Part shown: one piece after another, positions 53,064 through 54,988 of the stretch
Numbering within the stretch: position 1 is the first letter of the stretch
Layout: each line of letters begins with the position of its first letter
NCBI GenBank assembly: GCA_037200005.1
Contig: JBBCGY010000002.1
Coordinates: forward strand, 310,001-374,000
Reading direction: 5' to 3'
Source of the DNA: Alphaproteobacteria bacterium
Lineage (GTDB): Bacteria; Pseudomonadota; Alphaproteobacteria; UBA9219; RFNS01
Length of the DNA: 64,000 bases
The notes under the pieces: generated by a model
Told to the model about the DNA's origin: nothing
Databases searched by the model: none
The model's input: only the letters and a program-made list of their open reading frames with translations
Program-made: the position numbers and the translations under genes

Positions 53064-53144
53064 CTCAAAAACACCATGTATATTTATCCGTGAATGTTAT
53101 AGAACCTTCCGACAATTATGCCACATGAAGAATGAGAGGACCCT

Positions 53145-53498
53145 ATGCCCAAGGCTTCGACGCAATTTCTGGAGGATATGGGGCATGTGCTGGCTGCCTT
53201 GCTCGGTACGGCGGTTTCGGCGCGCGGCCAGGCGAGAGGGAAGGCCAAACAAAAGCTGGGGCTGCTTTTGCAGCGGCTGCAGCTCGCCGGACGCGAGGAT
53301 TTCGACGCGCTGCACGACATGCTGAAAGCCGCGCGGTCGGAGCAAGAATCATTGAAGGCGAGAGTCGCGGCGTTGGAAGGCAAAAGCGAGAACAAGGGCG
53401 GCCCGGCAACAGTCAAGGCTCCGATTAACAGAAAATTAAAAACCGGAAAAAATTCTCCCGGCAAGTCGTCGCGCAAGCGGAATAAAGCCCGGCGGTAG
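53145..53498 (+). CDS. UbiK-like accessory factor (DUF526/BMFP family)
   Basis: Small protein with a helical core, QKLGLLLQRLQLAGREDFDALHDMLKAARSEQESLKARVAALE, which matches the coiled-coil of UbiK (BMFP) proteins that help ubiquinone biosynthesis at the membrane. The C-terminus is Lys/Arg/Ser-rich and basic. 117 residues with an AGAGGA site before the ATG. The basic tail is longer than in enteric UbiK. It is followed by the GANTC-rich intergenic region. Confidence 0.72.
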   Translation: MPKASTQFLEDMGHVLAALLGTAVSARGQARGKAKQKLGLLLQRLQLAGREDFDALHDMLKAARSEQESLKARVAALEGKSENKGGPATVKAPINRKLKTGKNSPGKSSRKRNKARR

Positions 53499-53506
53499 CG
53501 CCCTAG

Positions 53507-53687
53507 GATTCTGAAAAGACTCAAAGTTTGAATCACTTGAATCGTTTGGCGGGCATATTCCGCGCCGCTGCTACTGTGACTCAAAGAGCACGCAGGGGAT
53601 TCCGCGTGAATCCAATGATTCACAAGGGCTTGCCGCCGGATTCATCCGTTGATAAGTGATTGTCATCGCGCTCTCGTCGGGGGAATC
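53507..53687. promoter_or_regulatory. Cluster of ten GANTC (CcrM-type) sites upstream of ybjN-proC
   Basis: GANTC sites start at 53507, 53518, 53530, 53539, 53578, 53598, 53608, 53617, 53639 and 53683, the last just before the ATG at 53688. About one site per 256 bp is expected by chance. A perfect inverted repeat GTGAATC-CAAT-GATTCAC spans 53606-53623, and the word GACTCAAAG recurs at 53518 and 53578. There is no gene here. In alphaproteobacteria GANTC is methylated by CcrM in a cell-cycle-dependent way and promoter GANTC sites are read by GcrA, so methylation-controlled expression is an inference. Confidence 0.75.
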
Positions 53688-54194
53688 ATGTCATATAATG
53701 TTTCGGTGGCTCATAGCGGTGTCGCGCACAATCCGCTCGACATCATCGAAGAGATCGTCGTCGCCAATGAATGGCTGTTCGAGCGCAACGCCAATGATGA
53801 ATTGATCGTCGAGCTTTCGGGCCGCTGGTGCCATTACCGGCTGTTTTTCGTGTGGCAGCGGCAAATCTCCGCGCTGCAGTTCTCGTGCCAGTTCGATCTG
53901 AAGGTTCCCGCCGCGCGCAAGAGCAGCGTGCATGATTTGCTCGCCGCCATGAACGGCAAGATGTGGCTCGGCCATTTCGAGATTTGCCCCGACGACGCCA
54001 CGCCGATGTTCCGCCATACTTTGCTGATGCGCGGCGCGCGCGGCGATACGGTGGAGACGCTGGAAGACCTCGTCGAGATCGCGCTGACCGAAAGCGAACG
54101 CTTCTACCCCGCGTTCCAGTTCGTGATCTGGGGAGGCAAGCAGCCCGCCGAAGCCATTGCCTCGGCGATGATCGACACCGTCGGGCAGGCTTGA
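53688..54194 (+). CDS. YbjN domain-containing protein
   Basis: Member of the YbjN family (a fold shared with type III secretion chaperones), often found just before proC in alphaproteobacteria. The start at MSYNVSVAHSGV follows a GANTC-rich region directly; an earlier in-frame ATG at 53649 is inside that region. The WCHYRLFFVWQRQISALQFSCQFDLKVP and HFEICPDDATPMFRHTLLMRG segments are typical. 168 residues. Its TGA overlaps the TTG start of proC. Confidence 0.85.
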   Translation: MSYNVSVAHSGVAHNPLDIIEEIVVANEWLFERNANDELIVELSGRWCHYRLFFVWQRQISALQFSCQFDLKVPAARKSSVHDLLAAMNGKMWLGHFEICPDDATPMFRHTLLMRGARGDTVETLEDLVEIALTESERFYPAFQFVIWGGKQPAEAIASAMIDTVGQA

Positions 54195-54988
54195 AGCCGA
54201 TCATCCTCGTCGGATGCGGCCATCTCGGCCAGGCGATGCTGCGCCGATGGCTCGATCATAACGAAGATTATCATTTCACCGTCGTCAAGCCTTCTCCCTT
54301 GCCGGATGATTTGGCAAGTCATGCTCGCGTGACGTGGGTGGCGGAACCGCCTAATGCCGCCGAAGCAGCCGCCATCATCTATGCCGTAAGACCGCAGCAG
54401 CTTGCCGCGATCCTGCCCGCTTATCGTGATCTGGCGCGAACCTGCCCTAATATTTCCGTTGCGGCGGGCTGGACGCTTAAAAAGCTGGCTCAGTATCTTG
54501 GCGACGCGGCGATCATCCGCACCATGCCGAATCTGCCTGCGCAAATCGGGCTTGGCGTGACGGCGGCGGTCGCGAATGATCGGTGCGATCAAGCCACGAA
54601 GGATTTGGCCGAGAATTTACTTCATGCGACGGGAGAGGTCGCATGGCTCGACGACGAGAGACAGATGGATGCCGTGACGGCTCTTTCCGGCAGCGGCCCG
54701 GCCTATGCCTTTCTGCTCGCGGCGGCGATGGAGGAGGCCGGGATCAAGCTTGGGCTGCCGCAGCCGGTCGCGGGGCGGCTGGCGCGGCAGACGGTTTATG
54801 GAGCAGCCGCTTATATGGTACAAGGCGACCAGGCGGCGGATGAGCTTTGGCGCGCCATGCAGCTGCCCGGCGGTACGACCGAAGCGGCGTTCACGCGCCT
54901 GCTTGCCGCGGACGGCATGACACCGATGATTCTCGAAGCCATGCAGCGCGCCGCCGCCTGCGCCGCGGAGATCGGTCAATCATCATGA
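54191..54988 (+). CDS. proC: Pyrroline-5-carboxylate reductase
   Basis: Last step of proline synthesis, reducing pyrroline-5-carboxylate with NADPH. It uses a TTG start overlapping the ybjN stop (TTGA), chosen because the dinucleotide-binding motif IILVGCGHLGQAMLRRW starts right there. The conserved LPAQIGLGVTA and the signature DAVTALSGSGPAYAFLLAAAMEEAGIKLG are complete. About 265 residues. It is coupled to the next gene by ATGA. Confidence 0.95.
   Translation: MKPIILVGCGHLGQAMLRRWLDHNEDYHFTVVKPSPLPDDLASHARVTWVAEPPNAAEAAAIIYAVRPQQLAAILPAYRDLARTCPNISVAAGWTLKKLAQYLGDAAIIRTMPNLPAQIGLGVTAAVANDRCDQATKDLAENLLHATGEVAWLDDERQMDAVTALSGSGPAYAFLLAAAMEEAGIKLGLPQPVAGRLARQTVYGAAAYMVQGDQAADELWRAMQLPGGTTEAAFTRLLAADGMTPMILEAMQRAAACAAEIGQSS

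Follow-up and report, generated by a model that had tools for sequence, protein, structure and literature searches.

The closest described systems are the CcrM/GcrA-controlled promoters of Caulobacter. In these, the stretch that GcrA protects on the methylated ctrA P1 promoter runs from -35 to -10, mutation of GANTC cripples the target promoters, and the mipZ promoter carries two juxtaposed GANTC sites (PMC3667746). Caulobacter ccrM is most probably methylation-controlled itself, and avoidance of GANTC is known in CcrM-bearing Alphaproteobacteria (PMC3973325). An extended GcrA consensus, YGAKTCK, comes from Caulobacter, and rewiring of the CcrM/GcrA targets is seen even among closely related genera (PMC7987155).

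The window, meaning the whole 64-kb stretch of DNA that was analysed, belongs to a genome of 2.36 Mb in two contigs (G000; other G numbers denote relatives). Within it, ten GANTC sites were identified in 181 bp (53507-53687), at 53507, 53518, 53530, 53539, 53578, 53598, 53608, 53617, 53639, and 53683. This array lies between a UbiK/BMFP family gene and ybjN, and these two genes and proC are all encoded on the plus strand. The features of the locus are as follows.

53145-53498, plus strand: UbiK/BMFP family gene, the upstream neighbour (Pfam PF04380, E 8e-15)
53507-53543, unstranded: box A, four GANTC (53507, 53518, 53530, 53539), at positions common to G002 and G003
53575-53592, plus strand: box B, TGTGACTCAAAGAGCACG, with GANTC at 53578; conserved in 23 aligned genomes
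53598-53602, unstranded: single GANTC; G003 has the same site
53606-53623, unstranded: palindrome GTGAATC-CAAT-GATTCAC, the second GANTC-N4-GANTC doublet (53608, 53617)
53630-53635, plus strand: putative -35 element TTGCCG; CTTGC invariant in relatives
53639-53643, unstranded: GANTC between the putative -35 and -10; position shared by 9/24 aligned genomes, G000 included
53650-53658, plus strand: putative extended -10 element TGA-TAAGTG (-10 at 53653-53658); TGnTA invariant
53683-53687, unstranded: GANTC abutting the ybjN start codon, beside a GGGGG ribosome-binding stretch
53688-54194, plus strand: ybjN (Pfam PF10722, E 2e-28)
54188-54988, plus strand: proC, pyrroline-5-carboxylate reductase (Pfam PF14748, E 4e-26), from a predicted start codon

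The initial annotation had described ten sites ahead of ybjN-proC with the last one at the ybjN start codon. Every site was located, and the final one ends at 53687, directly before the ATG at 53688. The palindrome and the repeated word GACTCAAAG that it mentioned are both present. Its statement that no gene covers the array also holds, as the UbiK/BMFP gene ends at 53498 and a minus-strand ORF overlapping the array (53084-53623) was judged to be mechanical and not a convincing gene. A second, 22-bp copy of 53547-53568 on contig C1 lies within an apparent coding stretch and was taken as chance. In the literature collection searched, no paper mentions both GANTC and YbjN.

The density of sites is above chance, as had been claimed. 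In 100,000 first-order Markov sequences matched in composition, ten GANTC were never reached, and the maximum was eight. The rate assumed earlier, about one site per 256 bp, was too high, the genome background being 2.5-3.0 GANTC per kb; the whole window has 185 GANTC versus 319 predicted from dinucleotides, and its next densest 181 bp contains four. The cluster is exceptional because, in the approximately 430 kb of sampled stretches used as background, it forms the densest 181 bp with a runner-up of six sites, and each of 173 sampled intergenic stretches has at most four, so that no equally dense cluster was seen there; genome-wide statements are limited by the completeness of metagenome-assembled genomes and by the sampled background. 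The second densest cluster, six GANTC in 129 bp (G000:C1:1003505-1003633; L198:8505-8633), surrounds the start of an apparent UDP-2,3-diacylglucosamine diphosphatase gene.

Clusters of this kind were also found in relatives from the same order of uncultured Alphaproteobacteria. Metagenome-assembled genomes are among these relatives, and some were submitted under the names Micavibrio or Rhodospirillaceae. Of 30 ybjN loci, 25 have at least five GANTC within 300 bp upstream, and the absence of conservation that would have counted against a role for the sites was not observed. The mean over these 30 loci is 6.1 GANTC per 300 bp upstream of ybjN versus 0.8 in neighbouring DNA. Over 240 bp upstream of ybjN, the 30 genomes together contain 166 GANTC against 31 expected from composition, and the maximum in 2000 simulations of these regions was 54. 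The pattern GA.TC is enriched 8.7-fold over neighbouring DNA, whereas the next best of 256 NN.NN patterns reaches 3.3-fold. In the sampled stretches of G002 and G013 (approximately 100 and 140 kb, respectively), the ybjN upstream cluster is again the densest. Judged by sequence comparison, conservation of the array is order-wide and is not due to chance. Box A sites are present, partly or wholly, in most f3 genomes, and at alignment columns 39, 52, 61, and 102 GA-TC is kept with a varying middle base. A free middle base with GA-TC kept, at box A and at the column before box B, is the pattern to be anticipated if the pentamer is itself important. Outside the order, GANTC counts are 0-4 at ybjN loci from Azospirillum and further groups and 0-6 in class-level genomes. 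Inside it, the cluster appears to be dispensable in some lineages, since G001 and G007 have lost it yet keep both CcrM and ybjN.

The array surrounds a putative promoter. CTTGC and TGnTA are invariant among 23 aligned genomes, with a spacer of 18 bp in 21 genomes and 17 bp in two, and fit the -35 and extended -10 elements of a ybjN-proC promoter with a predicted transcription start near 53665. In most genomes a GANTC lies at or inside this -35/-10 stretch, and GANTC was found at alignment columns 175 and 189 in 13/24 and 9/24 genomes, respectively. Further upstream lies box B, an 18-bp box (TGTGACTCAAAnnnCACG) that contains 11 invariant bases plus CAC (TGTGACTCAAA..CAC) in the 23 aligned genomes, in all of which its distance to CTTGC is 53-54 bp. 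Of the 32 order genomes searched, 22 contain exactly one copy of box B, a looser search of the genome gave one two-mismatch match only, and the box is absent from the class-level genomes and from the outside-group ybjN loci examined, Azospirillum included. Its GANTC always has C as the middle base in the aligned genomes. Box B is probably constrained by another protein because this middle base never changes, and its copy of GANTC may be kept for that protein. In G007, most of box B is retained (TGTAACACAAAAAACACG) and its GANTC is gone. Within one genus, G004/G008 (L029, L030) and G010 (L031) carry the interior of box B in opposite orientations, while the inverted-repeat arms flanking it persist and have changed on both sides.

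The centre of box B is located at about -82 from the putative transcription start. A class I activator of the CRP/FNR type would bind a TGTGA-N6-TCACA dyad near -82.5; in box B, the left TGTGA is invariant in 23 genomes and the right half is weak. A CRP-type dyad with at most one mismatch occurs in 10 of 30 upstream regions (mean 1.87 mismatches, against 3.29 in shuffled sequences; 2 in G000). The distance of box B would suit a class I activator, though the right half-site is weak. The proposal that the region is a protein-binding site stands for a part of it, box B, which looks like a specific protein site. Searches for FNR sites and CtrA sites upstream of ybjN were also performed; the former were rejected and the latter were not supported.

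Both CcrM and GcrA genes were identified in G000. The predicted CcrM (L200:7340-8509, minus strand) contains N6_N4_Mtase (PF01555, 2e-66) and RAMA (PF18755, 4e-16) domains, and GcrA matches PF07750 (5e-41). The commonest spacing in the clusters is GANTC-N4-GANTC, nine bases from start to start (21 cases), and box A includes such a doublet at 53530-53543. A doublet of the same spacing, with the consensus TGATTCnnnnGACTCTTT, is found in roughly half of the ccrM promoters examined in the order (loci L162-L185, e.g., L185 and L167). In its anatomy, this doublet appears to connect the ybjN array with the promoter of ccrM, which is methylation-related. Genome-wide enrichment of the doublet was rejected, since most of the 19 doublets in G000 lie within ORFs; the promoter-placed ones are those of ybjN (two) and ccrM. 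In G013, a doublet similar to that of the ybjN cluster, GAGTCATTTGAATC, is located 43 bp before glmU (L282:1501-1514). YGAKTCK accounts for 19/173 GANTC (11%) in the clusters versus 169/915 (18%) in the background genome, and for one of the ten window sites, with the reservation that this Caulobacter consensus may differ here. A Caulobacter-style GcrA reading via YGAKTCK is not supported by these flanking bases. The under-use of YGAKTCK may reflect an altered GcrA specificity, another reader, or effects of hemimethylation on other proteins.

On balance, we consider that this region is probably a CcrM-methylated, replication-timed sigma70 promoter of ybjN-proC with a second factor at box B. The initial annotation had suggested a methylation-responsive control region, and the conserved clusters, the free middle base, and the putative promoter give this suggestion good comparative support, as do the encoded CcrM and GcrA and the shared doublet at ccrM promoters. 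CcrM would methylate the array sites late in the cell cycle, and passage of the replication fork would leave them hemimethylated. Promoter activity would then be altered by a factor that senses methylation, in the simplest case GcrA with sigma70 but perhaps another protein, and the ten sites could give a steep response. A separate DNA-binding protein, perhaps of the CRP/FNR type, might dock at box B at about -82 and touch RNA polymerase. We only tentatively entertain a more specific possibility, that of a dedicated multi-site methylation switch, maintained throughout the order, whose reader, a non-GcrA protein or a GcrA of changed specificity, would recognise GANTC-N4-GANTC and couple ybjN-proC and ccrM to replication timing.

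The main rival to a methylation-timed promoter is a methylation-blind array of operators that bind a conventional transcription factor and include GANTC only by coincidence (e.g., TGAnTCA). Two box A sites can be read as copies of AAATGAYTCAA in inverted orientation and box B has TGACTCAAA in common with them, the middle base shows a site-dependent bias (Y, R, R, W) and is not fully random, and the under-use of the extended GcrA consensus would also fit such a factor. However, the other conserved sites share the GANTC core only (TTTGAATCG, AAGGATTCGTT, GACTCTTGC), 29 of the 142 GANTC in the aligned region fall outside shared columns, and the same doublet marks the ccrM promoters. Weighing these observations, we regard an operator array as rather unlikely.

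A replication-linked site, such as an origin, a repABC-like element, or a sequestration site of the kind formed by SeqA-bound GATC clusters, is improbable. The E. coli oriC carries clusters of GATC, which the array resembles in density. The repABC loci are also GANTC-rich (PMC11514494, PMC6090056), and box B is single copy. Against this, neither the window nor the relative G002 shows a switch in GC-skew sign at this locus, the best DnaA-box match has a mean of 1.70 mismatches versus 1.89 in shuffled sequences (1 in G000), no parS match was found in the region, the neighbours are ubiK, ybjN, and proC, and the relatives carry dnaA on other contigs. The origin-like role raised in the initial annotation is thus not upheld. 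The DnaA Pfam family was matched in 28 of the 32 order genomes searched and not in G000. The latter genome is approximately 95% complete and reads N over 20 kb (C1:1440001-1460000), and a gap or masked stretch is likely behind the missing DnaA.

A structured RNA leader or small RNA gene with GANTC words as helix halves is very improbable: hairpins can be drawn from the nearly self-complementary GANTC, and the palindrome shows one two-sided change (ATGAATC-CGGC-GATTCAT in G003, with the outer pair altered on both sides relative to G000), but the consensus fold of 23 genomes reaches -0.64 kcal/mol with no covarying pairs, the single-sequence fold has a z of -0.89, the Rfam search gave no match, the box A middle bases vary without compensation, and boxes A and B are probably not transcribed from the putative promoter because it lies downstream of both.

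As a CcrM-methylated promoter region, a dense array at one operon across an order would provide an unusually strong natural test case. The array suggests that site number, and not just presence, is selectable, and that ybjN-proC is a conserved target of methylation timing. The doublet of the ccrM type hints at a reader sensing paired sites about one helical turn apart. Among known systems, the repABC loci of alphaproteobacterial chromids and plasmids also have an unusually GANTC-rich control region (PMC11514494, PMC9040568), whereas the array described here precedes a chromosomal operon, with ubiK, ybjN, and proC as neighbours and no rep genes. The locus is similar to the Caulobacter CcrM/GcrA promoters (mipZ, ctrA P1, podJ) in having GANTC in a putative sigma70 promoter, with CcrM and GcrA present. 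It differs from them in its ten sites, compared with one or few in those described, in its target operon, in flanks that depart from YGAKTCK, and in the additional box B. The ccrM promoter of the same order shares GANTC-N4-GANTC with equal spacing and similar sequence (GATTCnnnnGACTC); it carries one doublet, whereas ybjN has an array, and the box B pattern is found at ybjN only.
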